DNA of 26,015 nt, from the IMG/VR virus record IMGVR_UViG_3300037805_000095, positions 1 to 26,015 of that record; one strand, 5' to 3'. Positions 135-22,440 of this stretch are shown here, piece by piece. The translations under genes and the position numbers were made by a program. The notes below the pieces were generated by a model that worked only from the letters and a program-made list of their open reading frames with translations, searched no databases and was not told the origin of the DNA. Each line of letters starts with the position of its first letter. Position 1 is the first letter of the stretch. Origin of the DNA: a virus.

Positions 135-578
135 TTACTTTTTATTTTCAAAGAATTGATCTAAGTTCAACTTCTCACCAAATGAGTAATCATAAGTCAA
201 TGCATCTGCACAAACAATATTTTTCTCTACAATAGTTCTAAACTCTTCGTGACCACATAACAACCTATCCCTAGTTACCAATACGTTATCTAGCATCAAG
301 TCAACACCATATGTAGTTTGTAGAGACTGCTCAAGAGAACTACCATTTTCAATCTTCCTGATTATAACTTCCCCAAGGAACTGACCATCACCACAACTTG
401 GATCTAGGAATGTCCTCATAGTATCAGTAAACTTTTCAATTGGGATTTTATCAAGAATCTCTCTGACCAAAGGTGTCGGGGTAAACACCTCACCAGTTGA
501 CTTGACTCTAGATTTCTCACGGGCAACACCAGACATGTATTCACGATCACGGATATGCTTTATTACATTTTCTATCAT
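135..578 (-). CDS. N6-adenine DNA methylase, AdoMet-binding half (split subunit)
   Basis: This 147-aa protein carries only the front half of an Eco57I/N6_Mtase-type adenine methyltransferase. TGEVFTP (28-34) is motif X, LDPSCGDGQF (58-67) is motif I that binds AdoMet, YGVDLM (90-95) is motif II, and ADAL (124-127) is motif III. It ends before the catalytic [DN]PPY motif, which sits instead in the gene transcribed just before it (589-1665). The gap between the two genes is 10 bases, and AAGGAACC spanning the upstream stop serves as ribosome binding site. The two proteins together would make one complete enzyme, so a heterodimer is the natural inference. Many phages and bacteria carry short methylases of this type, so action with another partner or loss of function cannot be excluded. 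Confidence 0.8.
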   Translation of the reverse strand: MIENVIKHIRDREYMSGVAREKSRVKSTGEVFTPTPLVREILDKIPIEKFTDTMRTFLDPSCGDGQFLGEVIIRKIENGSSLEQSLQTTYGVDLMLDNVLVTRDRLLCGHEEFRTIVEKNIVCADALTYDYSFGEKLNLDQFFENKK

Positions 579-588
579 ATGGGGTTCC

Positions 589-1665
589 TTATTTTCCTTC
601 GATTAGATTTATTTCTTCCTCAGTTAATCCGAACTCAGCATAGATTTCTTCGTCAGTCCACTCTCTATTTACATCTAGAACGGGTATAGTATGTTGTCTT
701 TGAGCAATAAGGAATACAAGTTTTGTATTCCTATAATTTTCGCCAATGTATTGAAATAATTTCGATGTATTCCATAGATCTCTAATCTTGGTCAGTTCTT
801 CTACACCACCTGTGATGTAAAAATAAGCAGGGGAAACTTCTTCTGTTGTTATCAGCAAGTTCTTGTCGGATACACAGAACTTCTTGTAGTTGTTCATACA
901 AAGTTTCAACGAGTTATCGATCACCTTGCTAGAATACATAACCTCGTGTGCTTTACTATTCCATATAACAGGGATAGGGTGGGATTCTGATTGTATAGAA
1001 ACAACGTCAGACTTCCTTCTACCTTGCCTCTTTATGGTGTATCTAGAGTGATCGCTATTGATAAACTTGCTGACGATACTATCTCGAGTCGTTGATTCTA
1101 ACATCATACCAGCTGTATATTGTACAACCTTTGTTTCGCCAGATGCCATCACGAACGTTGTAGGATCCTTAGATATCGTGTTTTTCAATCTCCAAGAACA
1201 TATCTTCACCCCAACATTGAAATGCTTATCGGTGGTTTCATCGTAACTGATAAATGCTTTTTGCTCGAGTATCTTTTGAAGTTTATTAGTGGTCTTGTTT
1301 ACGATCTTGTTTGACAACGATCCTTGCACGATAGTCCGAGGGCATATAAACATTATCTCACCACCATCTACCAACAATTCTTCGATACATTTGATCGCAA
1401 TGACATTCCATAACTTTATGTTATCTGATGCTCCTTGATACGGTGGATTTCCTACTATAACGTCAAATTGCATATGATCTAGTTCTCCTTCTAATAACTG
1501 TTGTACTGTATATAGTGTCGCTTGAGGCATGTAGTCGCCCATGATTAAATCTGCTTCCTTTGCCACCACCACAATCAGATTTGACTTATCTTTGTATTCA
1601 TTGTATTTCTGTTGTAACTCACTTAGAAACACTTGGCCACGGTAAATCAACATCACATTTTTCAT
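589..1665 (-). CDS. N6-adenine DNA methylase, catalytic NPPY half with putative target recognition
   Basis: This 358-aa protein has the catalytic motif IV NPPYQ at 73-77 (FDVIVGNPPYQ context). A helix (LWNVIAIKCIEEL) and the strand DGGEIMFICP follow, matching motifs V-VI of Eco57I-like adenine methylases. The rest has no motif I and probably contains the target recognition domain. There is no DPxxGxG AdoMet site anywhere in it. That site lies in the next gene (135-578), so the gene order is the reverse of the domain order in an intact enzyme. The start follows a purine-rich leader and a promoter at 1708-1736, making this the first gene of a two-gene transcript. The first 60 residues are not recognised. 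Confidence 0.75.
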   Translation of the reverse strand: MKNVMLIYRGQVFLSELQQKYNEYKDKSNLIVVVAKEADLIMGDYMPQATLYTVQQLLEGELDHMQFDVIVGNPPYQGASDNIKLWNVIAIKCIEELLVDGGEIMFICPRTIVQGSLSNKIVNKTTNKLQKILEQKAFISYDETTDKHFNVGVKICSWRLKNTISKDPTTFVMASGETKVVQYTAGMMLESTTRDSIVSKFINSDHSRYTIKRQGRRKSDVVSIQSESHPIPVIWNSKAHEVMYSSKVIDNSLKLCMNNYKKFCVSDKNLLITTEEVSPAYFYITGGVEELTKIRDLWNTSKLFQYIGENYRNTKLVFLIAQRQHTIPVLDVNREWTDEEIYAEFGLTEEEINLIEGK

Positions 1666-1707
1666 AATATAGGTCTCTCTCTGTTGGATTATTTATTTTA
1701 TATAGAT

Positions 1708-1736
1708 ATTATACTATAGAATATCCTATAAGTCAA
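1708..1736 (-). promoter_or_regulatory. Early promoter of the split methylase pair
   Basis: TTGACT (1731-1736), 17 bases, TATAAT (1708-1713) on the minus strand, 43 bases upstream of the ATG at 1665. The leader contains a GAGAGAGA tract near the ribosome binding site. Confidence 0.8.
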
Positions 1737-1744
1737 CCTTTGTT

Positions 1745-3922
1745 TTAATCTTCAAGACCTAAGAAAATCTGTATTTTTCTAAGTGTCACAACTTCGTTTT
1801 GTGATTCTGCATCTTGGAAGATACGATCAACAACCTTTTTATATGCTTCATTTTCCAAATTTCTTTCAAACACTTCTTTATCAAGACGAGTGTGTTTTTT
1901 CCAAGATTCATTACTCACTGTATCAATCATATCCAATGAGACAATATTGAAATATTTTTTACATAACACTGGAAGAACTTCAAGAATAATTCTCATTGTT
2001 TTGATATATTCTAATCTTTGTTTATCAGACAACACAACTTCTTTCTTTTTATCGTCTTCCTTTTTTCCTTCTGAGATTTTTGATTCTGGTTTAGTCAAAT
2101 CAGATTTGGTGATTGCTTTCGATTGTCTTGTAGATTTACCAATCGATATATCTATTTCAATGTCAGCATCCCATAATTTGGCATTGATATAACCTTCTTG
2201 TCTTGTCACTTCCATCAAACCATCGATCAGTTCGTTTATATCCAAAGTAAGTTTTTCTGTTGGTCCTTTTTCATTCAGAACGAATGCATTGAAGGTATTG
2301 AAATCCTGCCAGAAACGATGACCCTTTGAGATCAAATTATCATTGCTAGAATTTTCTACATTATCGTTTTCGATAAGGAACATATCTTCAGCAAGACCGA
2401 TACGCTCAAAACTGGCACGGATAATGTTAGCAGAATCCTTTCCTTCTTTCCATGTCAAACAACGACTCATCTTTTGGTAATCAGCAGAGGATATAGCACC
2501 GTCTTTGAAAATAACAACACGATCAATCTCAGGGATACTGAACGATCTACTTGCCATTTGGCGGCTGAAGATAACCAATTTACGAGTATCGTTCGACTTG
2601 ATCATTTCTTTCAATACTTTATTCACATGACGTTCAGCATCATTATTTGAAGTTTCTTTAGACGTAAGCAACATTGTTTTGATAGTGGATGAACGTGTAT
2701 CACTATAATGTTCAACGAACTGGTCAAGGTGTGTATTGTTTTCTGTATTGATAAAGATCATAGTTGCTTCATTATCAGTCAGATCTAGTTTACAGTTCTT
2801 GCCAACGAACTGGTCTACATAGTCTGCTAGATTGCTATGGTGATCAGCATCGGCGAACGATTGTGTGATATTTAATTTCTTTTCATCAGCAGACATTACT
2901 AATTGGATGTCTGTAAATTTGCGATGAACGACCATTTCACCCTTAGCCATTTCAATCATATCTGTATAGTTCATATGCCCAAAAAATGTATTTTCTTCGG
3001 TGCTTTCTTTACGGATAATCTTGTTTCCTTTGTTGATGTTTGTTCCAGACATTACAACGATTTTGACGATGTTACATTTCTCTTGGATGGCTTTGTGTTT
3101 AGCACGACTGTTCTCAGTATGAGCACCCATATCAGCCTCGTCAGTAACAAGGATAACATTGTGATGGCTTTGGATTTTTGAACTAAGATTCGTCAATACC
3201 GAGTCATCACCTTGGTATAAAGTCGCTTCAACAATCTCGAAATCATATCCAACATTTTTATAAGAACTTATGAAAGAAGCGTCACTGCCTTTGCTTTTTG
3301 AAGAAATTACCAACACAAGGTTATCATACTTTTTTGTTAGTTCTTGGGCATATTCTAGCATCAAATATGTTTTACCGAATCTAGGGCATAGACTCAACAA
3401 GTTGTAATACTTATCAGATGATAACATTTTAGATAGAATGGTTCTTTGTGGTAATCTAAGACTGATAACTCTTCTTGCTTTTTTGCCTAGAAGAGAATTA
3501 ATTGCTTTGTTTTTTGCATCATTTAAACGAGTCTCAAGAGCAGCAAGAAAATCTTTATTTTCAAGCAGACTATCTTCATAAGGCAGATCCAGACTTTCAA
3601 CAATGTCTTCGATACGAACCCAAGTCCACTCTCCGCGTTTACGGTCTTTTCTTGTATATGCTTCAAAGTTGGGGTATTCGTGAATAACATTACGAATCTT
3701 ATCGTCAAGTTTTACATCACTGTTGTTATCAACAGATATTTCACTAACAATAATAAGAGTCGAAGTGGTAGACGAAATATCTTGATCTTTTACTCGACCT
3801 TTGGTGTCTATTAATGTTTGACCATTCTTTACTTTCAACCATCCTGGTTTTTGCTTTTCAGAATAAGCAAATTCAGTTTCACAAGTGTAAGCATATTGGT
3901 AGTTTATTTTATTTGTTTTCAT
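1745..3922 (-). CDS. GIY-YIG-like nuclease fused to SF2 DEAD-box helicase, restriction-type
   Basis: This is a 725-aa protein. The N-terminus (about 8-110) fits the T5orf172/GIY-YIG nuclease pattern: YAYT (10-13), PGWLKV (26-31), the catalytic-type Arg in GRVKDQ (R43), a His in VIHEY (H81) and the Glu of GEWTW (E98). The SF2 helicase core follows. Its Walker A is the PRFGKT variant (180-185), motif II is VTDEAD (DEAD at 261-264), motif III is MSGT, and a C-terminal RecA-like domain has SADYQKMSRCL near 479-489 (motif VI). A lysine/glutamate linker near 640 precedes a helical tail. The start is the ATG at 3922. Reading further upstream only translates the promoter, with TTG in the -35 box. Lying next to a DNA methylase suggests a restriction or restriction-like role. 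An anti-host or repair helicase is the alternative. Confidence 0.75.
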   Translation of the reverse strand: MKTNKINYQYAYTCETEFAYSEKQKPGWLKVKNGQTLIDTKGRVKDQDISSTTSTLIIVSEISVDNNSDVKLDDKIRNVIHEYPNFEAYTRKDRKRGEWTWVRIEDIVESLDLPYEDSLLENKDFLAALETRLNDAKNKAINSLLGKKARRVISLRLPQRTILSKMLSSDKYYNLLSLCPRFGKTYLMLEYAQELTKKYDNLVLVISSKSKGSDASFISSYKNVGYDFEIVEATLYQGDDSVLTNLSSKIQSHHNVILVTDEADMGAHTENSRAKHKAIQEKCNIVKIVVMSGTNINKGNKIIRKESTEENTFFGHMNYTDMIEMAKGEMVVHRKFTDIQLVMSADEKKLNITQSFADADHHSNLADYVDQFVGKNCKLDLTDNEATMIFINTENNTHLDQFVEHYSDTRSSTIKTMLLTSKETSNNDAERHVNKVLKEMIKSNDTRKLVIFSRQMASRSFSIPEIDRVVIFKDGAISSADYQKMSRCLTWKEGKDSANIIRASFERIGLAEDMFLIENDNVENSSNDNLISKGHRFWQDFNTFNAFVLNEKGPTEKLTLDINELIDGLMEVTRQEGYINAKLWDADIEIDISIGKSTRQSKAITKSDLTKPESKISEGKKEDDKKKEVVLSDKQRLEYIKTMRIILEVLPVLCKKYFNIVSLDMIDTVSNESWKKHTRLDKEVFERNLENEAYKKVVDRIFQDAESQNEVVTLRKIQIFLGLED

Positions 3923-3956
3923 AATATATTTCCAAAGTTTCTCAAAAGTATGACTC

Positions 3957-3985
3957 ATTATCCCATGTATCGACTTCCATGTCAA
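3957..3985 (-). promoter_or_regulatory. Early promoter cassette, copy with GATAAT
   Basis: TTGACA (3980-3985), 17 bases, GATAAT (3957-3962), with TG one base before the -10 (extended -10). The conserved unit from the start codon to beyond the -35 (about 3920-3990) differs by a single visible base from the copy at 4503-4572 across the shared leader. It drives the nuclease-helicase gene. Confidence 0.85.
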
Positions 3986-3998
3986 CGACTATTTTCAT

Positions 3999-4505
3999 TT
4001 ATTTTACAAGGACTCTGTAGTGTAGACATTGAACTTCACCTTCTGCCATTATGGTCCTTACAGTGACTTGACGATCCTCACATTGGATGTATCCATTGAT
4101 GTTTCCATCACTAGCAATAAACAAGTAAGAACCATCAACAACCTTACCACCTTTCTTTTCGACCCTGAAGATAAGTTTTTCTTTCTTTTTCTCAACTTCT
4201 TTATCAAGGAAGTCACTAAGGTTGAATGGGTGTCTTGGGTTGTTATGTTTGTAGATAATATCTACGGTTGCTGCTGTCATAGACTGTCTGTGTCTTTTGT
4301 AGTTTTCTTGTGCTTCTACATAGTCGGCAGGTCGTATGTCTTCTGGTTCGCTCATTCGTCTGGTAAATAACTTATATTTTTTCATCAAGTCGTCACGTAT
4401 AGTTCGTAAACGGTTATCTTCTTTTGCTGTTGCTATGTAATAATCGGTGGTCTTTTCCTTCCATGTTGCTAAGAAGGTATCTAATGCGTCTGTTGGGTTA
4501 TTCAT
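3999..4505 (-). CDS. Unknown phage protein, 168 aa
   Basis: No family is recognised. The protein is charged. Its N-terminal two thirds look helical, with a lysine/glutamate-rich stretch near residues 105-113. A probable beta-rich end follows, including YLFIASDGNINGYIQ. The start is the ATG at 4505, preceded by GGAAATATATT. A longer frame back to 4571 is an artefact that translates the promoter repeat (KSIHGIMSHTFEKLWKYI). It has its own promoter and lies between the nuclease-helicase gene and a GC-richer unknown, so it is an independently regulated accessory gene. There are no membrane segments or signal peptide. Confidence 0.7.
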   Translation of the reverse strand: MNNPTDALDTFLATWKEKTTDYYIATAKEDNRLRTIRDDLMKKYKLFTRRMSEPEDIRPADYVEAQENYKRHRQSMTAATVDIIYKHNNPRHPFNLSDFLDKEVEKKKEKLIFRVEKKGGKVVDGSYLFIASDGNINGYIQCEDRQVTVRTIMAEGEVQCLHYRVLVK

Positions 4506-4539
4506 AATATATTTCCAAAGTTTCTCAAAAGTATGACTC

Positions 4540-4568
4540 ATTATCCCATGTATCGACTTCCTTGTCAA
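4540..4568 (-). promoter_or_regulatory. Early promoter cassette, copy with GATAAT
   Basis: TTGACA (4563-4568), 17 bases, GATAAT (4540-4545), extended -10 TG. AAATAAGTG lies immediately upstream of the -35, as in at least four other copies. It drives the 168-aa gene. Confidence 0.85.
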
Positions 4569-4577
4569 CACTTATTT

Positions 4578-4967
4578 TCATTTTATTTTCAAATGCAAGG
4601 TTTTAAGGGATTCAAAGGTTTCGTCTCCATCCAGATAGTGTGCCTCAAATTCAGCATCGGCTCTATCGATAGCAATCACGGTATTACGCACCTTTCTCTC
4701 GGCAACACGATGTAACAAAGGATCCGCAACATCATTTAAACGAGCAGTGACTTGGCGGCTTCCAAAATGGCGAACACATTTAGCAATATCTTTAAGATGC
4801 CCCCCACTCAACACGCTAACGATGAACGCTTTTGAAGGCATATTACGATTACTCCAATCATAAGGCTTTGCCATGCCCAATAACTCGGACAACGATGTGT
4901 CACCTGCTTCAGTAGGGGTTGGATAGAACTCGTGCTCTTCTTTATCTTCAGGCTTTCTATAGCGCAT
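4578..4967 (-). CDS. Unknown 129-aa protein, GC-richer than its surroundings
   Basis: The start at 4967 has a GAGGGG ribosome binding site 4-5 bases upstream. The product is soluble and charged, with an acidic N-terminus containing PTPTEAGDTSLSELL. A central helical stretch contains HLKDIAKCVRHFGSRQVTAR and could be a DNA-binding or protein-binding helix pair. No family is recognised. By eye the GC content is clearly higher than in the neighbouring genes, which suggests recent acquisition. It follows the 72-aa gene at 5027-5245 and probably shares its promoter (5278-5305), since no convincing promoter lies in the 59-base gap. Confidence 0.65.
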   Translation of the reverse strand: MRYRKPEDKEEHEFYPTPTEAGDTSLSELLGMAKPYDWSNRNMPSKAFIVSVLSGGHLKDIAKCVRHFGSRQVTARLNDVADPLLHRVAERKVRNTVIAIDRADAEFEAHYLDGDETFESLKTLHLKIK

Positions 4968-5026
4968 TTATCCCCTCTTTCGTTATTCTAACTGAAATCC
5001 AATATATTGAACTCTAATTGCTGTCA

Positions 5027-5245
5027 TTATGCGATATCCAACTGGATATCGAAGCCTAGCCATTTTCCGCATAGACCTGATGGAGAGACACCACCGCTAT
5101 TTCTCATAGTTTCTAAAGAGTTTAATGCTGATCTGGCAGCATCATTGAAATTATCAAATGTGCCTAAGCCTTGGCGTATTTCTTTAGCAGTTGTATAGAA
5201 TGATACATAATCTACGATAATTCTGATTTTAGTAGTTGCTTTCAT
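5027..5245 (-). CDS. Unknown small protein, 72 aa
   Basis: It is read from the ATG at 5245 (MKATTKIRIIVDY). A GTG four codons upstream is possible, but it would use up the GTGAGA that serves as ribosome binding site. The product looks like a small alpha/beta protein: a beta strand, then a helix with FNDAARSALNSLETM, then a strand. The last codons contain an 8-bp inverted repeat (about 5032-5051) with no T tract. First gene of a two-gene unit with 4578-4967. Function unknown. Confidence 0.6.
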   Translation of the reverse strand: MKATTKIRIIVDYVSFYTTAKEIRQGLGTFDNFNDAARSALNSLETMRNSGGVSPSGLCGKWLGFDIQLDIA

Positions 5246-5277
5246 GTTATTTCTCACTTTATTGATTTGATGAGTCT

Positions 5278-5305
5278 ATTATACCAGAATCTGCGGGGAT
5301 GTCAA
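5278..5305 (-). promoter_or_regulatory. Early promoter with 16-base spacer
   Basis: TTGACA (5300-5305), 16 bases, TATAAT (5278-5283), with TGG directly before the -10 (extended -10). The upstream AAATAAGTG element is present. Drives 5027-5245 and probably 4578-4967. Confidence 0.8.
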
Positions 5306-5312
5306 CACTTAT

Positions 5313-5555
5313 TTACCATTTAGACATCTTCTGAGTGAAGTCAATTATCTTAGTTTGTACCTGTTCTTCTGTGAATCGTTGATGGACTTCACGCCAGTAT
5401 TCTTCTCCTTCTGGTGAAGCATCCCACATAAAGGCACCACCTAAACCAACCACCCTATCTTCATCATCGTGGAACGCTTCGTCCGCGTTAGTCATGAACT
5501 TCAGGGTTAGGTCATTTCTGTCTAGGAATTCTAGTAGATCGTTGGGGATATTCAT
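5313..5555 (-). CDS. Unknown acidic phage protein, 80 aa
   Basis: The product begins MNIPNDLLEFLDRNDL and contains GGAFMWDASPEGEEYWREVH, a pattern seen in small phage proteins with [FW]xWxxxPEGxxxW. Function is unknown. It starts 10 bases after the stop of 5566-5931 with no clear Shine-Dalgarno sequence, so translation is probably coupled. It is the last gene of the unit running from the promoter at 6926-6954. Confidence 0.65.
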   Translation of the reverse strand: MNIPNDLLEFLDRNDLTLKFMTNADEAFHDDEDRVVGLGGAFMWDASPEGEEYWREVHQRFTEEQVQTKIIDFTQKMSKW

Positions 5556-5565
5556 ATATTATAGG

Positions 5566-5931
5566 TTAGTTCTGTGGTGGTGTATAGGTTGTGTGAATGG
5601 CATGAACCAATCTATCATGATCAAAACCAACCACTGAGATTTCTGTGAATGTTGTGTAATCGGTATCAGATTCTCCGAATATCAATGTCCGGTATAATGG
5701 GATATTATATTTGATATGATGAATTATATAAACACCATCAGACGCTTTGATCTTCAAATATGTCTCAAAATCGTTGGTAATCATTGATACTTTGAAATCG
5801 TGTGGCTTGTAATATGAGTATTCTCCATACTCCTCGTTTATTTTTTTAATGATATCCGTTTCAGTAATTCCTAGTTGTTCTGCTGATAGTTCAAACTCTT
5901 CGTTTTTGTAGTTCTTGATAATTATCTTCAT
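5566..5931 (-). CDS. Unknown phage protein, 121 aa
   Basis: The ATG at 5931 overlaps the TGA of the preceding gene (ATGA), so translation is coupled. The product is rich in Tyr and Ile and probably alpha/beta. A short N-terminal strand (MKIIIKNY) and a helix (ITETDIIKKINEEY) are followed by several predicted strands. There is no signal peptide, metal-binding motif or nucleotide-binding motif. No family is recognised. Confidence 0.65.
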   Translation of the reverse strand: MKIIIKNYKNEEFELSAEQLGITETDIIKKINEEYGEYSYYKPHDFKVSMITNDFETYLKIKASDGVYIIHHIKYNIPLYRTLIFGESDTDYTTFTEISVVGFDHDRLVHAIHTTYTPPQN

Positions 5932-6128
5932 GGTGTTATGTCCAGTCCGCTATCAGTAGTCCTAAACAATTTACCATCACCATAAAAGGCCTTCAATTTC
6001 TTACCATCCCAAGTATTAACAACACACGCGACAGAACGTCCATCCGATAAGTTTAATCCAATAGCCACAATGTAAGCATCAAATCCACATTTGGTTTTGT
6101 AGGTTTTGCCTACTATCAATTCACACAT
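5928..6128 (-). CDS. Unknown small protein, 66 aa
   Basis: The product is probably all-beta, opening MCELIVGKTYKTKCGFDAYIV. This could be a small barrel (SH3- or OB-like), but that is only an impression. The start at 6128 has a strong purine tract, AGAGAGAGAGAGGAAAG, as ribosome binding site. It overlaps the next gene by ATGA and follows the SleB hydrolase by 25 bases. Confidence 0.65.
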   Translation of the reverse strand: MCELIVGKTYKTKCGFDAYIVAIGLNLSDGRSVACVVNTWDGKKLKAFYGDGKLFRTTDSGLDITP

Positions 6129-6145
6129 TTTCTTTCCTCTCTCTC

Positions 6146-6161
6146 TCTCAAAGTTATTTTT
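6146..6161 (-). repeat. Leader/junction repeat, copy 1
   Basis: AAAAATAACTTTGAGA on the minus strand, spanning the stop codon of the SleB gene and the leader of the 66-aa gene. An identical 16-base copy lies at 6602-6617, at the preceding gene junction. The pair suggests that gene joints, not only promoters, have been duplicated. Confidence 0.5.
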
Positions 6162-6594
6162 TATAAAAGATATGATTTTCTATTGTTGCAACATACTTTA
6201 ATGAATTTCTCCATCTTGGTTTAACATTTTTTGTATGATACCACATAGCACCTTTTGAAATCTCGTTTTTTGCTATTATAATATAAAACTCATCTACATT
6301 TTTTCGTATAACATGTAATACCTTTTTATTCCTTGCTGGTTTCCATCCATTATTATACCAAGAGAATTGCTTAGGTTGCTTTATAACATCACATAGATTT
6401 GTTGGATAATTCTTAGACTTAGATCTATTATTAACCACATCCATTATCATAAACTGTCCAAGTGTAGATTCGGATCTACCTTCATGGTACACATTTAATG
6501 CCAGACAATCCTTTTCATTATCAGTAATAACACGAGCATTGCCTATCATCGGTATCAAACATAACACCAAAAATGCTATTAATTTTATATTCAT
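6154..6594 (-). CDS. Exported SleB/CwlJ-type cell wall hydrolase
   Basis: A 146-aa protein with an N-terminal signal sequence (MNIKLIAFLVLCLIPMIGNA, cleavage about residue 20). A Hydrolase_2 (SleB/CwlJ) domain follows. LALNVYHEGR (31-40) carries the family's conserved Glu (E38). QFMIMDVVNNR matches the typical Q-x-A-x-V-x-x-NR helix, and QFSWYNN matches QFSW. The family cleaves peptidoglycan glycan strands (lytic transglycosylase-like). The signal sequence implies action in the periplasm, as a lysin exported by the host Sec system or an envelope-remodelling enzyme. It sits in an early transcription unit (promoter 6926-6954) and not in the plus-strand late group, which is unusual for an endolysin. 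Confidence 0.85.
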   Translation of the reverse strand: MNIKLIAFLVLCLIPMIGNARVITDNEKDCLALNVYHEGRSESTLGQFMIMDVVNNRSKSKNYPTNLCDVIKQPKQFSWYNNGWKPARNKKVLHVIRKNVDEFYIIIAKNEISKGAMWYHTKNVKPRWRNSLKYVATIENHIFYKK

Positions 6595-6601
6595 AATATA
6601 A

Positions 6602-6617
6602 TCTCAAAGTTATTTTT
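6602..6617 (-). repeat. Leader/junction repeat, copy 2
   Basis: Second exact copy of AAAAATAACTTTGAGA, immediately after the stop of 6616-6891 and leading into the SleB gene. Confidence 0.5.
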
Positions 6618-6891
6618 AAAGGTTTATGCGTTTAAGTATTAATGTGTATCCATCAACACCAGACATCAACCAGAAATATACAAGGGATGCTTCAATATTG
6701 TCTGATAAAGTCTTTTTGCAGTCTATATTACTGATCCATACTTTTGTCTCATAGAGGTTGTGTGCCATGTCAGGATCAGCAATCACCACGGTAAGGGTTT
6801 TTTTCTCGTGGGTTTCTATTGAATCGTAGGCAATACTAGAATCGGCAAGCCAGTCTGATATTTGTAATTTTAGTGTGTTTTTTGCAGTCAT
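6616..6891 (-). CDS. Unknown phage protein, 91 aa
   Basis: The start at 6891 (MTAKNTLKLQISDWL) follows GGAAATATATT. The upstream in-frame extension to 6957 is translated promoter repeat and is rejected. The product is small, soluble and probably alpha/beta, with no motif I recognise. First gene of a five-gene unit (this gene, SleB, and the 66-, 121- and 80-aa genes). Confidence 0.65.
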   Translation of the reverse strand: MTAKNTLKLQISDWLADSSIAYDSIETHEKKTLTVVIADPDMAHNLYETKVWISNIDCKKTLSDNIEASLVYFWLMSGVDGYTLILKRINL

Positions 6892-6925
6892 AATATATTT
6901 CCAAAGTTTCTCAAAAGTAAGACTA

Positions 6926-6954
6926 ATTATACCTTGTATGGACTTCCTTGTCAA
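6926..6954 (-). promoter_or_regulatory. Early promoter cassette, TATAAT copy
   Basis: TTGACA (6949-6954), 17 bases, TATAAT (6926-6931), with AAATAAGTG upstream of the -35. The leader TTTGAGAAACTTTGGAAA is identical to the copies at 3920 and 4503, while the -10 region is closer to the copies at 16771 and 21060. It looks like a hybrid of two cassette types. Confidence 0.85.
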
Positions 6955-6981
6955 CACTTATTTTAAATTATTTTTGTTTCA

Positions 6982-7461
6982 CTAACTTCGATACTCAATG
7001 ATATGATACTTTTCTTTACCATCTTGGTATGCTTGTATTGCATCTTCTTCATTGACAAAAAACCCCAAGTGCTTATTCACACCATCAACCATGATTCGTG
7101 CTTGCCATTTTTGACACTTTTTGTCCCAAGAATACCCCTTTGAATGCGTATTAAATGAATTCTCTTGCTTAGTAACGACTCTCAAGTTGTCAATGCGGTT
7201 ATCATCTCTTATACCGTTTCTGTGGTCAATGAACATCTTTTCAGGAATGTTGCCGTTATGCATAATGTAAATCAATCTATGTACTCTATGACGTTTAAAG
7301 TCTGCGGTCACCAAGGTATATCCATAGATGTCAGTTGTGCCAGCCATAGCACCCTTCCTTGCTGTAGGGGACCTATTAGTTTTATTATACAACTTACCAT
7401 CTCTGTATTCAAATAGTTCATTCAGTCTTTCTTGACTCGGATCACCTGTGGGAAGTGTCAT
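6982..7461 (-). CDS. Free-standing HNH endonuclease with AP2 DNA-binding domain
   Basis: A 159-aa homing-type endonuclease. The HNH part spans about 45-100 with HRVHRLIYIMHNG (58-70), IDHRNG (79-84) and DDNRIDNLR (87-94), which supply the metal-binding His/Asn residues of the HNH_3 fold. The C-terminal AP2-like DNA-binding domain covers about 109-150 (GYSWDKKCQKWQARI, then LGFFVNEEDAIQAY). Such genes are usually selfish elements inserted beside conserved phage genes. This one lies directly downstream of thyX, with its ribosome binding site (AGAGGTAA) starting at the thyX stop. No intron boundaries are seen, because thyX is intact. Confidence 0.85.
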   Translation of the reverse strand: MTLPTGDPSQERLNELFEYRDGKLYNKTNRSPTARKGAMAGTTDIYGYTLVTADFKRHRVHRLIYIMHNGNIPEKMFIDHRNGIRDDNRIDNLRVVTKQENSFNTHSKGYSWDKKCQKWQARIMVDGVNKHLGFFVNEEDAIQAYQDGKEKYHIIEYRS

Positions 7462-7471
7462 CTCATTACCT

Positions 7472-8125
7472 CTAAATGATAGTTTTAGTCATTGGAAATA
7501 TCTTTGTGATTGCTTTAGCACAAGCAAGAGCAACTTTTTGATGCTCTAATTGTGTCCCGTTAGCACATCTCAATTCGATATAATGTAACCAACTCCTGAT
7601 CGTACCATTCATATACATTCTTGAAACTGTATTACCTTCAGGAAGAATTGCTCTTGCTTGTTCCTTGGCAATGCCATTACTAATTGCCCAATCATAATTC
7701 TCTTTAACTAAACGAATCAACTCCTTCTGTCTTCTATCCCATTCACCACACAACTCCCTATCTTCATTAGGAATAGAGTTTTGTCTATTCTTGGTGTCTT
7801 GTAATCGTGCATCACGAGTCACAAAAGCAAGATCAGTAGTAGGATCAGCATATCTCTGAGAAAACTCTTGGAATGAAAATGATCTGTGTCTAAGAATTTG
7901 TCGTGCAATATCTCTTGTAGTTTCAATCTCAATACAAGCAGATACCATCTCAAGTGGACTCCAATGCTTGTTCTTGATAAGATAGTTAATAAGTTTTTCT
8001 GAGGTTTCATTATTCATTTGATTAGATGGATTAGAAACTCTGGCACAGAATGCCACTAGATCTTGAATATCATTTAACCCAGAATCATCTACCGGTGTTG
8101 AATAACTAATTAATTTTACTCTCAT
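7472..8125 (-). CDS. thyX: FAD-dependent thymidylate synthase ThyX
   Basis: A 217-aa flavin-dependent thymidylate synthase that makes dTMP from dUMP with methylene-tetrahydrofolate and NADPH. The ThyX signature RHR-x7-S is at 79-89 (RHRSFSFQEFS) and continues QRY. An N-terminal CARVSNP segment, HWSPLEM (54-60) and a C-terminal RCANGTQLEHQ helix also fit the family, and the length is normal. The start overlaps the helicase stop by ATGA, so translation is coupled to gp41. With the dCMP deaminase (10947-11384) it forms a dCMP-dUMP-dTMP route for an AT-rich genome. Confidence 0.95.
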   Translation of the reverse strand: MRVKLISYSTPVDDSGLNDIQDLVAFCARVSNPSNQMNNETSEKLINYLIKNKHWSPLEMVSACIEIETTRDIARQILRHRSFSFQEFSQRYADPTTDLAFVTRDARLQDTKNRQNSIPNEDRELCGEWDRRQKELIRLVKENYDWAISNGIAKEQARAILPEGNTVSRMYMNGTIRSWLHYIELRCANGTQLEHQKVALACAKAITKIFPMTKTII

Positions 8126-9510
8126 ACTTTAAACCCCTTGAAATCGTTCATTTTTTTATTTGCATAATTCGCTACTGGTGGTTCAGCAGGTGCTTGTCCC
8201 GAATCCATTATACCCTGTGCTGATTGCTCAACATCATATAACTTCATCTTTGCTTTATCTACCCCGACAATGAATCTCTTATTAAGATTAAGATCCGCAT
8301 ATCGGTTCTTCAATTGTTTCACTAGGATTTGATTTAATCCTTCTAGTTCTTCATTACTAATCAATGCAAACATTAAATCTGCTGTTGCTGGTAAACCAAA
8401 TGATTCTGAAGTATCTGTAAGTTCTACATCAGAACTATTAAACCCTGAACGTGTAACCTGTGTTGCAGAGATAATAGGTACATTAAATTCTACCGCTAAA
8501 CCTCGAATCTCTTCAGCAATTGATTTGATTAATGTATAAGAGTTAACAGAACCACCAATACCTTTCATTCTTGCCGAAGCACAAATATTAAGATAATCAA
8601 TAAAAATGATATCAGGCATAAAGTTCTTTTTCAATTGCAACTCTTTTAATAAAGACCTGAAATGCCCAACATGAGCAGAACCAGTTGGATACTGTTTGAT
8701 CTTCAACATACCTTGGGATTTCTTAGAGATGCTATTAATCTTACTAGTGAATGCTTCTTTTGATATATTCTTAATATCATCTAAGTCTGTATTCAAAAGG
8801 TTTGCATCAATACGTTCAGCAATCTTTTCTTCTGCCATTTCCATTGTAATATACAAGGCATTTTTACCTTGTGATATGATAGAACTTGCAACGTGACACA
8901 TGAACAAACTTTTCCCAGTACCAGTACCCGCTAGAATGACATTTAAACTTTTCTTACTAAAACCACCCTTTGTGATTTGATTGAAGTAATCAAGGTCGAT
9001 GGGTAATTTCTCTTCGGTTCTATGATAAAATTCGTAACGTTCATCTACATCAGTGAAATAATCATGACCAATGTTTTGATCAAATCCGACTGACAAAGCA
9101 TCTTGTAACAATTCTGGTAATGCATTTTTGGTTAACTCCTGATCTTTACCTTCAATGATAGAAATAGATTTCATGATAGCAAGATAGATTGCTCTATCCT
9201 GACACCATTTTTCTGTATGATCTAGTAACCAATCTATATCAGTTACTTCTTCTTTTCTTGATACTTCTGAAACTATTGTTATAACTTCATGGTACTGTGA
9301 ATCCGATAGATTAGCACTATCTAATTCAATAGATAATGCTTCTCCGGAGGGCAGTTTATTGTACTTAGAAACAAAGTTTAGAATCTCTTGAAAGATAATG
9401 CCGTGATTTCCTTCAAAGTATTCCTTCTTTAAGAATGGGATAACCTTACGAGTAAAGTTATCATTATTAATCAGATTCCGTAAAATTATTGTCTGGATCT
9501 CTGTGTTCAT
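8122..9510 (-). CDS. 41: Replicative DnaB-type DNA helicase, T4 gp41 family
   Basis: A 462-aa hexameric 5'-3' helicase of the DnaB/gp41 family, close to the length of T4 gp41. An N-terminal helical domain (about 1-140) is followed by a RecA-like core with Walker A AGTGTGKS (194-201) and Walker B DIIFIDYLNI. QVTRSG is the sensor-like segment, and KQLKNRY fits the arginine-finger region. The ATG at 9510 is preferred because it has AGGTG about 9 bases upstream. The GTG at 9522 lies inside that ribosome binding site. It overlaps the upstream 122-aa gene by 44 bases. The order uvsX-x-41 matches T4 (uvsX-40-41). Confidence 0.93.
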   Translation of the reverse strand: MNTEIQTIILRNLINNDNFTRKVIPFLKKEYFEGNHGIIFQEILNFVSKYNKLPSGEALSIELDSANLSDSQYHEVITIVSEVSRKEEVTDIDWLLDHTEKWCQDRAIYLAIMKSISIIEGKDQELTKNALPELLQDALSVGFDQNIGHDYFTDVDERYEFYHRTEEKLPIDLDYFNQITKGGFSKKSLNVILAGTGTGKSLFMCHVASSIISQGKNALYITMEMAEEKIAERIDANLLNTDLDDIKNISKEAFTSKINSISKKSQGMLKIKQYPTGSAHVGHFRSLLKELQLKKNFMPDIIFIDYLNICASARMKGIGGSVNSYTLIKSIAEEIRGLAVEFNVPIISATQVTRSGFNSSDVELTDTSESFGLPATADLMFALISNEELEGLNQILVKQLKNRYADLNLNKRFIVGVDKAKMKLYDVEQSAQGIMDSGQAPAEPPVANYANKKMNDFKGFKV

Positions 9511-9835
9511 GTTTTGTATCACCTATTTTATAATTTCCGTCAGTAAAAGCACTATCTAATACAAAACTTAATATGTCACCCACATAATTATTAAAATCTA
9601 TATCGGATTCAAGATCCACAGTATCTAAACCGGATGGAACATAGTTAATAGCATATTCAAACTTTAAAGTTGCTTTGGCATCTTTATCCAAAGGTTCTGT
9701 AAAAGAAATAGCACCATAACTTAATACTACACCGGTGTATTGACCAGATAGAAGTTTAAATGAATCATATTCAGCATCTTCAATGTAAGATATTTGTTCA
9801 AAATCATATTCTGTAATATTATTATTATACATCAT
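9467..9835 (-). CDS. Unknown acidic protein between uvsX and gp41, 122 aa
   Basis: The start at 9835 (MMYNNN) has a strong GGAGG ribosome binding site. The first 11 bases overlap the end of uvsX and the last 44 overlap gp41. The frame's further upstream part is uvsX in another frame and is rejected. The protein is strongly acidic and probably beta-rich (SGQYTGVVLSYGAISF), with a disordered acidic C-terminus ending DPDNNFTESD. It occupies the position of T4 gene 40 but shows no similarity I can see. Tight overlap with both replication genes suggests a replication or recombination accessory role, by inference only. Confidence 0.75.
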   Translation of the reverse strand: MMYNNNITEYDFEQISYIEDAEYDSFKLLSGQYTGVVLSYGAISFTEPLDKDAKATLKFEYAINYVPSGLDTVDLESDIDFNNYVGDILSFVLDSAFTDGNYKIGDTKHEHRDPDNNFTESD

Positions 9836-10892
9836 TTTCCTCCGTTTGTAAAGCAGTAATATCAATATCACCTAAAATAGATTTATAACCAATAGTGAAA
9901 TGACTCTTAACGAATGCAGAGAAATCCGTTTCTTCTAATATAGATTTCCAGAAACCTTCGTTCATTGTATCTTTTTCTCTTACCTTCGGATCAAGCAACT
10001 CTCCAGTAGATTTATCAACTTTACAATACCAACCATTGGAAGGCTTACCAACATAATTGCCAGCCAGAGCAATATCAAGCAACCCAGAGTAACGCTGTAT
10101 ACCGCCTTCCCAAGAAACTGTAATAGGAATTTTTGACTTCTCTTTAACATATCGTGATTTCTCTACGTTGATTATGAAATGATACCCTTGTATTTCTGTG
10201 CCTTTCTTATCTTGTTGTCTACCAATAATCCATACGTTATCCGCACTGTACATTACACCTGTACCACCTGATACAACTGGTTTTGAATACATTTCAAGAG
10301 TTTGATATGTATGATTCACGGCAATCATTGGAATATCTTTCATTGTCAGATAAGGAGTTGACATACGAAATAGACCTTTCAATGCTTTTGCTCTTGACAT
10401 ATCAGCGACTGCTTTTTCATTTAAGGCATCATCAAGTTCTTTCTTAGATGCTAAGTTACCAAGTGAATCAATTACAACAACAACTTTATCTTCTCTTGTA
10501 ATCATTTCTAACTGATTGATTAGATCAAACTTCAACTCTTCTACGTTAGTAATGGGTGTATGTAAAACTCTTGAAGTATCAATATCGAATGATTGAAAAT
10601 ATGATTGTGGTGAACCAAACTCTGAATCATAGAACAACATAACAGCATCAGGGTATTTCTTTAGATAAGCAGATGCCATTACTAACCCAAAACTTGTTTT
10701 GAAATGTTTAGATGGTCCTGCTAATACCGTTAATCCTGGAGTCAAACCACCTTCAAGTGACCCAGATAATGCAACGTTGATCATTGGTACATCAGTTGGA
10801 ATCATATCCTTATCAGTAAATAACTTTGATTTTGATAATACTTCTGTAGATTTTAGTTTAGAATTCTTTTTTAGTTTGTCCATGATAGACAT
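9825..10892 (-). CDS. uvsX: UvsX, RecA-like recombinase
   Basis: A 355-aa strand-exchange protein. Walker A is the T4-type GPSKHFKTS (59-67; T4 UvsX has a similar GPSKxFKS form), and Walker B is VVVIDSLGNL. The DNA-binding loop region precedes GGTGVMYSADNVWIIGR. The ATG at 10892 is chosen because GAGGTG lies 6 bases upstream. A GTG at 10901 overlaps that site. It has its own early promoter (10929-10957) and leads the uvsX-x-41-thyX-HNH unit. No intron or intein is seen. Confidence 0.95.
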   Translation of the reverse strand: MSIMDKLKKNSKLKSTEVLSKSKLFTDKDMIPTDVPMINVALSGSLEGGLTPGLTVLAGPSKHFKTSFGLVMASAYLKKYPDAVMLFYDSEFGSPQSYFQSFDIDTSRVLHTPITNVEELKFDLINQLEMITREDKVVVVIDSLGNLASKKELDDALNEKAVADMSRAKALKGLFRMSTPYLTMKDIPMIAVNHTYQTLEMYSKPVVSGGTGVMYSADNVWIIGRQQDKKGTEIQGYHFIINVEKSRYVKEKSKIPITVSWEGGIQRYSGLLDIALAGNYVGKPSNGWYCKVDKSTGELLDPKVREKDTMNEGFWKSILEETDFSAFVKSHFTIGYKSILGDIDITALQTEENDV

Positions 10893-14370: not shown

Positions 14371-14586
14371 TCATATCCAACCCTCTTGTTCGATGTCGAA
14401 CCAGTAGCAGCCAAAAGATTCATCGACTGTCTCCATATTCATTAGTCGTTCTGCTTGTTCCTCAGTTATGTTGATGTTTGTCTTTTGTAGCAACACCTCT
14501 TTAGTCGGCATCTTTGACCAGATTCCTATGACAACATTAGTGCGGTCATAATTATCGTCTTCGGTATATAAGCAGTAAAGGTTCAT
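14371..14586 (-). CDS. Unknown small protein, 71 aa
   Basis: Read from the ATG at 14586 (MNLYCLYTEDDNYD). The in-frame extension upstream translates the promoter repeat and is rejected. It is an acidic alpha/beta protein with a helix NITEEQAERLMNME. No family is recognised. Single-gene unit with its own cassette promoter, facing the convergent late transcript. Confidence 0.65.
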   Translation of the reverse strand: MNLYCLYTEDDNYDRTNVVIGIWSKMPTKEVLLQKTNINITEEQAERLMNMETVDESFGCYWFDIEQEGWI

Positions 14587-14620
14587 AATATATTTCTCTA
14601 ATTTCTCAAAAGTATGACTC

Positions 14621-14649
14621 ATTATCCCATGTATCGACTTCCATGTCAA
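14621..14649 (-). promoter_or_regulatory. Early promoter cassette, copy with GATAAT
   Basis: TTGACA (14644-14649), 17 bases, GATAAT (14621-14626), extended -10 TG, AAATAAGTG upstream. Its core is identical to the copy at 3957-3985, more than 10 kb away. The leader next to the start codon differs (AATTAGAGAAA). Confidence 0.85.
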
Positions 14650-14662
14650 CACTTATTTTAAA

Positions 14663-15304
14663 TTAATCCCACAATGAAGAGTAATATTTACCGAACAACC
14701 TAAATCCGTTTTGGATTCTATCCTTGTATTTGTTGATTCCATCCCAATCATACTCCAAGGTGTGTTTGGGTCCATGATCTAATATTTTAAGCGTAGAACC
14801 ATCATACGTTTCATCAGTATCAACCCAAACATAGTCAGCGACACCAGTTGTAAATTGCCCCATCCAATCATCTTCATCTAGTTTAGATCCAAAAGCAAAT
14901 ATCATTTCATCAAGACACCATTCCCACCGTTCAAAGAAGAACTCATCGGTATCCCATGCATCATTACACCTAGGAGCATTCATAGATTTCAATCTATCAG
15001 GAACGTCACACTCATCAACTGCCGGTGCTCCATGATGGTTATCTTTGAGTTTAACCAACATAGGATAAATAATCTTTGCTAACGTATAATCAGCAGACCA
15101 CACATCATGATCATCTATCTTGATATATTCTATTTCAGGATGAATGAAATCTAACACAGATTTTAACCCATTACAAGTTGCTGTTAAGATTTTTGGTGGT
15201 TCATCCTCGAATGCATCATAATCCTTTCTCCAGAAGAAGAACTTCTCCTTTATTGTATAAGGAGAAATCCAATGATTTCTAGGTTTCCCCATAAATACTT
15301 TCAT
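14663..15304 (-). CDS. Conserved phage protein of unknown function, 213 aa
   Basis: The N-terminus MKVFMGKPRNHW and the block DDHDVWSADYTLAKIIYPML, followed by HHGAPAVDECDVP, form a pattern I associate with a widespread phage hypothetical family. Its activity is unknown. It is rich in Trp and Asp. A FFFERWEWCLDEMIFAF helix and an aromatic C-terminus ending SSLWD are visible. GAGGAAAG precedes the ATG. It is the last gene of a six-gene unit starting at 16734 and is coupled to the 53-aa gene by an ATGA overlap. Confidence 0.75.
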   Translation of the reverse strand: MKVFMGKPRNHWISPYTIKEKFFFWRKDYDAFEDEPPKILTATCNGLKSVLDFIHPEIEYIKIDDHDVWSADYTLAKIIYPMLVKLKDNHHGAPAVDECDVPDRLKSMNAPRCNDAWDTDEFFFERWEWCLDEMIFAFGSKLDEDDWMGQFTTGVADYVWVDTDETYDGSTLKILDHGPKHTLEYDWDGINKYKDRIQNGFRLFGKYYSSLWD

Positions 15305-16734: not shown

Positions 16735-16770
16735 ATCATAGTTCCTGTATTTCTCAATTAAGTAAGACTA

Positions 16771-16799
16771 ATTATACCTTAACTAGTCTTAGATGTCAA
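16771..16799 (-). promoter_or_regulatory. Early promoter of the 16734-14663 operon
   Basis: TTGACA (16794-16799), 17 bases, TATAAT (16771-16776). The leader shares TTAGTCTTACTT with the copies at 98 and 21060. The -35 is immediately preceded by the end of the methylase remnant. Confidence 0.85.
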
Positions 16800-16804
16800 C
16801 ACTT

Positions 16805-16921
16805 TTATTGTATAAAATTTAATGTATCATCAACTTCTTTGGTTAATACATAAGTGTTATCAATACGCACCTTTGCTATGTCGAAGTAGGTTTCGTCCAT
16901 CTCTATTCCTATGAAACTGCG
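16805..16921 (-). pseudogene. C-terminal remnant of a DNA methyltransferase
   Basis: In one minus-strand frame the codons read R-S then FIGIEMDETYFDIAKVRI, followed by about 18 residues and a TAA at 16805-16807. 'FIGIE.D..Yf.iA..RI' is the well-known C-terminal AdoMet-pocket block of beta-class N4/N6 DNA methylases (DpnA/YhdJ-type). The rest of the gene is missing, and the frame abuts the DNA polymerase stop codon. An internal ATG at 16898-16900 would give only 31 residues. Both edges carry the ATAAGTGT-type sequence found upstream of cassette promoters. I infer deletion of most of a methylase gene, unrelated to the split methylase at 135-1665. Confidence 0.65.
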
Positions 16922-19903: not shown

Positions 19904-20347
19904 TTATTTAGATTCGGTTAAGAACTGTGCTTTACCAATAGGGATAGATTTGGGTTGCATTTCTTCAGGAACAATAACATCTAAGGTAATAATTAAAATA
20001 CCATCAATAATATCAGCCTCCGATACTTCAACATAGTCGGAAAGTCTGAATTTCTTATTAAATTTCTTAGTAGAGATACCTCGGTGGATATATTCAAACG
20101 ATTCATCATTTGATTTATCTGAATCGCCAGAGATAGTGAGGGTACGATCTTCAACAGATATAGACAGTTCGTCTTGATTAAATCCTGCAACAGCAAGTTC
20201 AATCTTATATTTTGTTTCAGATATCTTTTTAAGATTATGTGGTGGGTAATGATTTTCGGAACTTCTTGTAATTGCTTGCATATCTGATAAAAGACTATCC
20301 AAACCAACAAAAGATGAACGTGGGAACATTGTGTTTAATTGTGTCAT
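19904..20347 (-). CDS. hsp20: Hsp20-family small heat shock protein
   Basis: A 147-aa small heat shock protein with an alpha-crystallin domain (about 45-130). YKIELAVAGFNQDELSISVE and LTISGD form the core strands, and FEYIHRGIS with KKFRLSDYVEV forms the R/F motif region. GILIITLDVIVPEE gives the G-I-L strand. A C-terminal SIPIG matches the I-x-I anchor used in oligomer assembly. Phage Hsp20 is a common gene of marine T4-type phages and may help fold virion proteins. The ribosome binding site is the perfect AGGAGGT. A TATAAATA late promoter lies upstream (20415-20422) and a strong terminator downstream, so it is a single-gene unit. Confidence 0.92.
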   Translation of the reverse strand: MTQLNTMFPRSSFVGLDSLLSDMQAITRSSENHYPPHNLKKISETKYKIELAVAGFNQDELSISVEDRTLTISGDSDKSNDESFEYIHRGISTKKFNKKFRLSDYVEVSEADIIDGILIITLDVIVPEEMQPKSIPIGKAQFLTESK

Positions 20348-20836: not shown

Positions 20837-21025
20837 TTAACAAGAAAATGAAAAGGATGATATTGTATTCAATTTATATCCTCGTTCTTTAAGATATGTA
20901 ACACATTTACGTTTTGCATTTTTTAAAGTATAATCAGAGAAGTATACCTTCTCATCTTCTGGAAGGTATACTTTAAACGTTATTACACCGTTCTCATCAA
21001 TCTTTTCTGCATTTACTAATTTCAT
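20837..21025 (-). CDS. Unknown small protein, 62 aa
   Basis: Starts MKLVNAEKIDENGVITFKVY at 21025 after GGAAATATATT. Two predicted strands are followed by a helix, TLKNAKRKCVTYLKERGYKL, and a Ser/Phe/Cys tail. It is basic overall. No family is recognised. First gene of a three-gene unit (this, 47 aa, His-rich exported protein). Confidence 0.65.
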   Translation of the reverse strand: MKLVNAEKIDENGVITFKVYLPEDEKVYFSDYTLKNAKRKCVTYLKERGYKLNTISSFSFSC

Positions 21026-21059
21026 AATATATTTCCTGTATTTCTCAAAAGTAAGACTA

Positions 21060-21088
21060 ATTATACCTTATCTAGTGCTAGATGTCAA
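21060..21088 (-). promoter_or_regulatory. Early promoter cassette, TATAAT copy
   Basis: TTGACA (21083-21088), 17 bases, TATAAT (21060-21065), AAATAAGTG upstream. The leader matches the copy at 16771 around TTAGTCTTACTT and the copy at 6889 around GGAAATATATTATG. Confidence 0.85.
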
Positions 21089-21176
21089 CACTTATTTTTA
21101 GAATATTTTTAAAAATTGTCACTATCCAAGTAATAATTGATATCGAAGAAAGTAGTAGTAGTAAATATTTAAACAT
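21078..21176 (-). CDS. Possible 32-aa hydrophobic peptide
   Basis: A short frame starting MFKYLLLLLSSISIITWIVT with a single likely transmembrane helix and a few basic residues at the end. It begins 9 bases after the stop of the 76-aa gene, and its last codons run into the -35 of the next promoter. No Shine-Dalgarno sequence is visible, so expression would rely on coupling. It may be chance, although a hydrophobic run this clean is suggestive. Confidence 0.3.
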   Translation of the reverse strand: MFKYLLLLLSSISIITWIVTIFKNILKISVDI

Positions 21177-21950: not shown

Positions 21951-21979
21951 ATTATAATATAGATCATATCAGTTGTTAA
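21951..21979 (-). promoter_or_regulatory. Early promoter overlapping the end of the nuclease gene
   Basis: TTAACA (21974-21979), 17 bases, TATAAT (21951-21956). The TAA inside the -35 is the stop codon of the upstream nuclease gene. A small hairpin GGACTT/AAGTCC (21932-21947) falls at the predicted transcript start. Confidence 0.65.
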
Positions 21980-22440
21980 GGGTTATTTAAATCACACCAA
22001 GATTCTTTTTTCTTGCCATAATATTCACGAGCATAACCTTTTTCTAGTAACATCATTCTAAGACTTTTACCATCTAGGAGGATATCACCCAAAACTCGTC
22101 CTCCATATTTATCCCATTTTATAATAGCGACTCGTTGAACTTTACTTTCTTTGATCATTTTTTTAGTGAAGTTGCTTGCTTCTTCACCATGCCGTGCTTC
22201 GGTTTCGCATTCTGCTCTCCAACTCTTTTCAGGAGTATCAACACCAAACACTCGAATCGATAATTCTTGTTTCAATGGTGCGGGTAGAAAGTTTGCTTCA
22301 AATGCAACAGTATCTCCATCAATTACTCTTGTGATTTTGTAGTCATATATAGCAGCAACTTTCTCTTTAGCAAATGCCAAAGGATTTATCACTAGTTTCA
22401 TAACTATCATTAATCCTAGTAATATTTTTACACTTCTCAT
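21976..22440 (-). CDS. Exported staphylococcal-type (thermo)nuclease
   Basis: A 154-aa SNase-family nuclease with an N-terminal signal sequence (cleavage near LAFA, residue 24). The catalytic set is complete. VIDGDT (39-44) is present, R63 in SIRVFG matches Arg35, and D68-T69-P70-E71 in GVDTPE matches Asp40/Thr41/Glu43. R115 in KYGGRVLGDI matches Arg87, and the LLEKGYAREYYG end fits the family. These Ca-dependent enzymes cut DNA and RNA. Export places it in the periplasm or outside the cell, where it could attack incoming DNA or external nucleic acid. The start lacks a clear Shine-Dalgarno sequence. No promoter was confidently found in the 172-base gap upstream. Confidence 0.88.
   Translation of the reverse strand: MRSVKILLGLMIVMKLVINPLAFAKEKVAAIYDYKITRVIDGDTVAFEANFLPAPLKQELSIRVFGVDTPEKSWRAECETEARHGEEASNFTKKMIKESKVQRVAIIKWDKYGGRVLGDILLDGKSLRMMLLEKGYAREYYGKKKESWCDLNNP

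Follow-up and report, generated by a model that had tools for sequence, protein, structure and literature searches.

Does a genome fragment of a T4-like phage encode a complete system that marks the phage's own DNA and cuts DNA lacking the mark? The question is raised by IMG/VR virus record IMGVR_UViG_3300037805_000095, analysed over positions 1 to 26,015 (this whole stretch of 26,015 nucleotides is hereafter called the window). The DNA polymerase encoded in the window shares 51% identity with its counterpart in Phage C48C1 and ca. 49% with that of cyanophage S-T4. Near its beginning lie three genes, H, M_C and M_N, coding for a nuclease–helicase and for two parts of an adenine methylase. As judged from domain homology and conserved gene order, they probably constitute a phage-borne ATP-dependent restriction–modification (R-M) system with a two-subunit methylase. 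A compact phage R-M system had been proposed in an earlier sequence-only reading of this DNA, and the proposal is now supported by the linkage of H homologues to methylase genes and by the homology of the H N-terminus to GIY-YIG nucleases. The genes and domains concerned (SF2, superfamily 2; SAM, S-adenosylmethionine; AF2, AlphaFold2; pLDDT, predicted local distance difference test score) are as follows:

1745-3922, minus strand: H (protein P0001), a 725-aa GIY-YIG (T5orf172-type) nuclease plus SF2 helicase, from the open reading frame (ORF) and its translation
3578-3922, minus strand: GIY-YIG/T5orf172-like domain of H, residues 1-115, with K32-x-G34-x-T36, R43 and E98, from profile homology
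2243-3475, minus strand: SF2 helicase core of H, approximately residues 150-560, from motifs and AF2 (pLDDT mostly 80-93)
589-1665, minus strand: M_C (protein P0002), 358 aa, the half of a gamma-class adenine methylase that carries catalysis and target recognition, with NPPYQ at residue 73
1480-1665, minus strand: vestigial SAM-binding half of M_C, residues 1-62, from AF2 secondary structure
135-578, minus strand: M_N (protein P0003), the 147-aa SAM-binding half, with motifs X, I, II and III

The order of transcription on the minus strand is H (3922-1745), M_C (1665-589) and M_N (578-135). All three ORFs are intact and are found again unchanged on several contigs, and among the window ORFs there is no extra gene between or immediately flanking them. 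The cassette thus looks like a complete three-gene system for marking its own DNA and cutting the rest. In the proposed mechanism, M_N would bind SAM and M_C would supply the catalytic NPPY and the target recognition domain (TRD), the two together forming an N6-adenine methylase of the gamma class (M.TaqI/CamA-like), by which a short sequence in the phage DNA would be marked. H, either by itself or bound to the methylase or to an unmethylated site, would move by means of its ATP-driven SF2 motor, and its GIY-YIG nuclease would cut unmarked DNA after this movement, like Type ISP and Type I enzymes. The presumed targets are host DNA, or the DNA of rival phages and of mobile elements such as plasmids.

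The nuclease–helicase and the divided methylase

The SF2 helicase core ascribed to H by the sequence-only reading is confirmed by its motifs, with which the PDB and AF2 matches agree. H contains motif I (CPRFGKT, residues 178-184), motif II (DEAD, 261-264), motif III (SGT, 292-294) and a motif VI-like sequence (QKMSRCL, 483-489), and it matches Helicase_C in Pfam (E=8.8e-5). The best Foldseek match of the H model is the Type ISP enzyme LlaBIII (E=5e-11), with HsdR a few ranks down, and the profile of the viral alignment A4 retrieves restriction helicases from the PDB.

The nuclease at the N-terminus of H is recognisable through its relatives. P0001 scanned directly against Pfam, PHROG, PADLOC and NCBIfam gives no nuclease match. 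T5orf172/MUG113 is matched by an H relative from a gut phage (L015, E=2.3e-9) and in 6 of the 29 members of A4, and T5orf172 by a bacterial H homologue (L178, E=2.4e-8). In hhalign, the N-terminal parts of P0001 and of L074, the relative closest to it, align with a set of GIY-YIG relatives, mostly T5orf172/MUG113-positive (set A7), with a probability of 95% and E=3.7e-8. The supposition that this N-terminus is GIY-YIG-like is thereby borne out: a homology to the GIY-YIG/T5orf172 nucleases exists at the profile level. K32-x-G34-x-T36, R43, Q47 and E98-W99 of P0001 fall in family columns, those of R43 and E98 being invariant. Hence two of the residues named earlier as GIY-YIG-type, R43 and E98, are conserved, but His81 is not the aligned histidine; it sits one helical turn from the aligned position, which is Arg77. 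The AF2 model of the N-terminus comprises beta8-14, beta28-34, alpha37-47, beta56-63 and alpha70-81, at pLDDT 45-67. The A7 profile found no GIY-YIG chain in the PDB, only spurious matches (e.g. dioxygenases), and the matches listed by Foldseek for the full H model, including this low-pLDDT part, are helicases or motor proteins. Because of the low pLDDT and the lack of a GIY-YIG structure from the PDB searches, the assignment of the domain, supported as it is, rests on sequence homology.

M_C matches Eco57I (PF07669, E=1.4e-7) from motif IV onward, as well as phrog_3689 (DNA methyltransferase, E=4e-20). Foldseek matches of its AF2 model (pLDDT 82.6) include CamA (7e-12), M.TaqI (1e-10) and M.BseCI, which all belong to the gamma class of N6-adenine methylases. 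Residues 1-62 of M_C are arranged as strand-helix-strand-helix-strand and lack the Gly-rich loop of motif I. This motif is intact in the relatives L024, L026, L039 and L055, and degenerate in the window, in S-CAM7 and in L074. Relatives of M_C without any SAM half are common, and in many phages M_C begins MKFDVVIGNPPY (the shortest relatives).

M_N displays the motifs EVFTP (X), DPSCGDGQF (I), YGVDL (II) and CADAL (III), and no NPPY. It matches the SAM-binding half of N6_Mtase (PF02384, E=6.6e-4) and, over its whole length, phrog_4376 (E=1.6e-21), to which no function is assigned. Viral M_N sequences nearly always have the canonical motif I loop, while NPP[YFW] occurs in 1 of 72. A joined N+C profile made from four loci is collinear with CamA through the junction (E=7e-14; M_N alone 1e-4), which places the cut exactly between motifs III and IV. 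Gamma-class motifs X, I, II, III and IV and the TRD are all present, shared between P0003 and P0002. The full complement of adenine methylase motifs reported from the letters alone therefore stands, with the amendment that it is spread over two genes and permuted: instead of the one-chain order X-I-IV-TRD, IV-TRD comes first, followed by X-I-III. M_N and M_C are fused in this permuted order in L075.

Conserved gene neighbourhoods and exchangeable modules

Viral relatives were collected with M_N (388 found, 80 kept) and together with named phages make up 64 clusters at 90% identity; adjacency was counted in those 49 clusters whose upstream sequence reaches 3.5 kb or more. M_C adjoins M_N in 44 of these, and H or an H–C fusion, recounted, is present in 32. 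The two methylase genes are coupled, their reading frames (C and N) overlapping in 57 of 61 pairs, and H–C fusions are frequent among the relatives. Named relatives include genes 055-056-057 of Synechococcus phage S-CAM7, MC09 (with H fused to M_C, 'Eco57I') and gp51-53 of ACG-2014f, for which the annotations go no further than hypothetical, methyltransferase or 'type II restriction subunit'. They share ca. 20% identity with the window cassette in H and differ from it in gene order and fusion state.

A bacterial scan made from the H side gave 80 loci (L102-L181), 58 of which have enough upstream sequence. An operon of the order N-M-H is present in 63 of the 80, across many phyla, and in 53 of the 58 testable loci. 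Of the bacterial N sequences, 60 of 61 carry EPACGxG[NA]F and 60 of 60 are without NPPY. In bacterial M, NPPY is found in 63 of 63, and motif I reads DPxxK[ST]G[VI]F, with Lys replacing the first Gly, in nearly all. The PADLOC model PDLC03626 ('REase_MTase_IIG', 1359 aa), filed as Type IIG, matches both bacterial H and bacterial M, joined in a single polypeptide. Integrase or recombinase, RhuM and Bro-N genes were seen among the neighbours of the bacterial H homologues L136, L137, L138, L178 and L179.

Operons of the H-C-N type thus recur widely, with relatives of the cassette in many bacteria and in dozens of phages besides this one. Methylase and nuclease genes stand in one conserved unit in phages and bacteria, as is required of an R-M system, and H homologues almost always adjoin methylase genes in both. 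Homologues occurring apart from methylases and serving solely in repair, the outcome that would have told against the sequence-only reading, are thus not what is found. It should be added that M_N cannot in every member be the missing part of one methylase split in two. This description was rejected as a general one since some M_C relatives and bacterial M keep the Rossmann half, and the term constant partner suits M_N better than replacement half.

Other nucleases occur beside the same methylase pair in phages, so the nuclease part is swappable. A PD-(D/E)XK-like protein and a helicase accompany the pair in L002, L017, L033 and L048. Bellamy and ACG-2014f C90 encode related proteins (34% identical) with a PD-(D/E)XK-like pattern, plus helicases, and in L033 and L048 a small protein of similar kind stands with a ResIII helicase. 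In L066, L067 and L077 there is a lone small protein with a GIY-YIG-like pattern by sequence reading, for which Pfam gave no match. In S-SKS1 (L019, 5989-7368, minus strand) a possible GIY-YIG domain (weak, 45%) is fused to M_C and followed by M_N, and no helicase was seen near this fusion. The exchange is most directly visible in ACG-2014f, where the flanks of C24 and C90 are 96% identical while the cassettes are wholly different after the same M_N: H and M_C in one (L016, 3357-6444) versus a PD-(D/E)XK-like protein, M_C and a helicase in the other (L017, 2370-5842). A 72-bp, 90% identical stretch recurs at both cassette borders.

M_C is also found in multiple copies. L026 contains five tandem M_C genes (3311-9817), preceded by a split H and followed by one M_N (9798-10349). 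Identity among their products is 95% in residues 1-80, 83% as far as NPPY and 19-37% thereafter, a pattern that looks like a specificity array. L061 (5706-10480) has five M_C-like genes without the SAM half, then a single M_N, with no recognisable H; it may be a modification-only array and suggests that some phages keep modification alone. The methylase may accordingly be combinatorial, with a constant M_N serving interchangeable and, in some phages, tandem M_C specificity subunits, an idea put forward tentatively, its chances being judged a little short of even. Were it true, a phage could hold several specificities and retain a single cofactor subunit through exchanges of the nuclease module, and the window would represent the single-specificity form.

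Promoters, and possible roles in host degradation, decay or repair as alternatives

Separate promoters for H and the methylase had also been noted, and near-consensus sigma-70-like sites indeed precede each unit, with a further site past the cassette:

3985-3957, minus strand: sigma-70-like promoter upstream of H, TTGACA-17-GATAAT with TG before the -10, within a 92-nt repeat
1736-1708, minus strand: sigma-70-like promoter upstream of M_C-M_N, TTGACT-17-TATAAT
126-98, minus strand: sigma-70-like promoter just past M_N, TTGACA-17-TATAAT, within a related repeat (79-147)

The window has 17 sigma-70 sites scoring at least 11/12, 16 of them on the coding strand (shuffled sequences: mean 2.8, maximum 7). 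Promoter/leader repeats of 69-92 nt (79-147, 3918-4009, 4501-4592, 6887-6978, 14582-14673, 16752-16820 and 21021-21112) lie upstream of several window genes, and several of the sigma-70-like sites are inside them. An assignment to the PeSL mobile regulatory cassettes, in which an early promoter and a stem-loop recur between genes, was rejected: the promoter repeats are present, but none of the three stretches folded gave a stem-loop above shuffles. The promoters of H and of M_C-M_N are of the same sigma-70 type; they might nevertheless allow H and the methylase to be timed differently, as was supposed. Elsewhere in the window, ORFs read by eye include an HNH-endonuclease-like (6982-7461), a ThyX-like (7472-8125), an Hsp20-chaperone-like (19904-20347) and a thermonuclease-like secreted nuclease (21976-22440) gene.

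Several observations weigh against an R-M function of the cassette. On the part of the nuclease, the N-terminus of P0001 has no direct Pfam GIY-YIG match, AF2 confidence over it is low, and the family histidine (which T5orf172 relatives have in a D-x-x-(I/V)-H helix) is replaced by Arg77. On the part of the methylase, motif I is intact in some M_C relatives, in which N is no simple replacement half. As to linkage, no H is found nearby in 17 of the 49 viral clusters with the methylase pair, and the bacterial H-family members L136, L137, L138, L178 and L179 have no methylase in the available flank.

Arg77, together with the missing Gly-rich loop of M_C, would fit a decaying or inactive cassette, a helicase and methylase remnant in which the nuclease of H and the SAM binding of M_C have been lost. 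This is improbable: the ORFs are intact and unchanged on several contigs, the same His to Arg change is present in L074, L055 and L039, and M_C relatives without a SAM half altogether are common. Moreover, Odn (Gp88) of ICP1 is an active T5orf172 phage nuclease that lacks one conserved first-helix His or Tyr, retains the Arg and Glu, and cuts DNA (PMC8263062). The family His is thus not needed in every active GIY-YIG member.

The phages with M_C and M_N and no recognised H nearby, the five-M_C array of L061 among them, bear on another explanation, according to which the main task of the methylase pair is to shield phage DNA from restriction by the host, and H degrades the host genome or scavenges nucleotides, with no part in defence against rivals. 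A GIY-YIG enzyme sparing modified phage DNA has a precedent in T4 endonuclease II (PMC1564403), and host-type, early-like promoters suit such a role. H is, however, an ATP-motor restriction-type protein and no small nickase, and its bacterial homologues stand in the same operon on chromosomes, where degradation of the host would be senseless. Host degradation is considered unlikely, although its chances are not small.

The bacterial H homologues without methylase genes in the flank, few as they are, may also be quoted in favour of a UvsW-like helicase for recombination or repair that carries a structure-selective nuclease domain, next to which methylase genes would be incidental. T4 UvsW is found by the A4 profile as well (2e-5), and the T5orf172 proteins of jumbo phages were proposed to act in recombination (PMC7824862). 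The tight linkage of H to the methylase in phages and bacteria, the frequent H–C fusion, the replacement of H by other nuclease modules at the same place, and a restriction enzyme as its top structural match speak against this. On the grounds of linkage, fusion and module swapping, a lone repair helicase was rejected as the main explanation, and its probability is put very low, slightly under that of decay. An ATP-dependent R-M system thus remains the probable function of the cassette.

Significance and comparison with known systems

If active, the cassette would represent a restriction class widespread in T4-like and other phages, serving in virus–virus or virus–host conflict, and a methylase with cofactor binding and catalysis located in different proteins; it would also offer compact, re-targetable modification enzymes. 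Hundreds of phage proteins so far annotated as hypothetical receive an identity through the analysis, and the strains of a single viral species that have exchanged whole nuclease modules provide a natural experiment on superinfection exclusion. No published description of this cassette was found in the literature searched, REBASE and subscription journals being outside the scope of the search.

Among the closest counterparts are the N-M-H operons of Ruminococcus, Phocaeicola, Desulfovibrio and other bacteria, with which the window cassette has three protein families in common. They differ in the order (N-M-H versus H-C-N), in the size of the proteins (ca. 230, 510 and 840-960 aa), and in the Rossmann half, with Lys in motif I, retained by bacterial M. 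The Type ISP enzymes LlaGI and LlaBIII likewise combine nuclease, SF2 helicase, adenine methylase and target recognition in one functional unit, and the H–C fusions among the relatives of the window cassette reproduce this domain order. LlaGI and LlaBIII are, however, single polypeptides with a PD-(D/E)XK nuclease, while the window cassette consists of three genes with a GIY-YIG domain, has the SAM half of the methylase encoded in trans, and is borne by a phage. It was not assigned to Type ISP since nuclease, helicase, methylase and TRD do not form a single polypeptide. Neither does it belong to Type I, as there is no separate HsdS gene between or directly beside H, M_C and M_N, nor to Type III, in which Mod is a single gene, the methylase here being two gamma-class halves.

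Phage-borne R-M systems are already known. EcoP1I of phage P1 is a complete ATP-dependent Type III system carried by a phage (PMC2962900); it differs from the window cassette in being a Res/Mod pair whose dimeric methylase (M.EcoP1I) is the product of one gene, and its gene layout is unrelated. In CglI (R.CglI and H.CglI), restriction is also ATP-dependent and performed by a nuclease and an SF2 helicase-like protein (PMC5737866), but these are separate proteins, whereas they are fused in H of the window. The Mom systems of jumbo phages pair modification with a nuclease of the restriction endonuclease fold, proposed to act against host or superinfecting DNA; their modification is acyl, the proteins are different, and there is no helicase (PMC7824862). 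What distinguishes the cassette and its relatives is that a GIY-YIG helicase, a trans-encoded SAM half, nucleases that can be swapped and arrays of M_C occur in combination.

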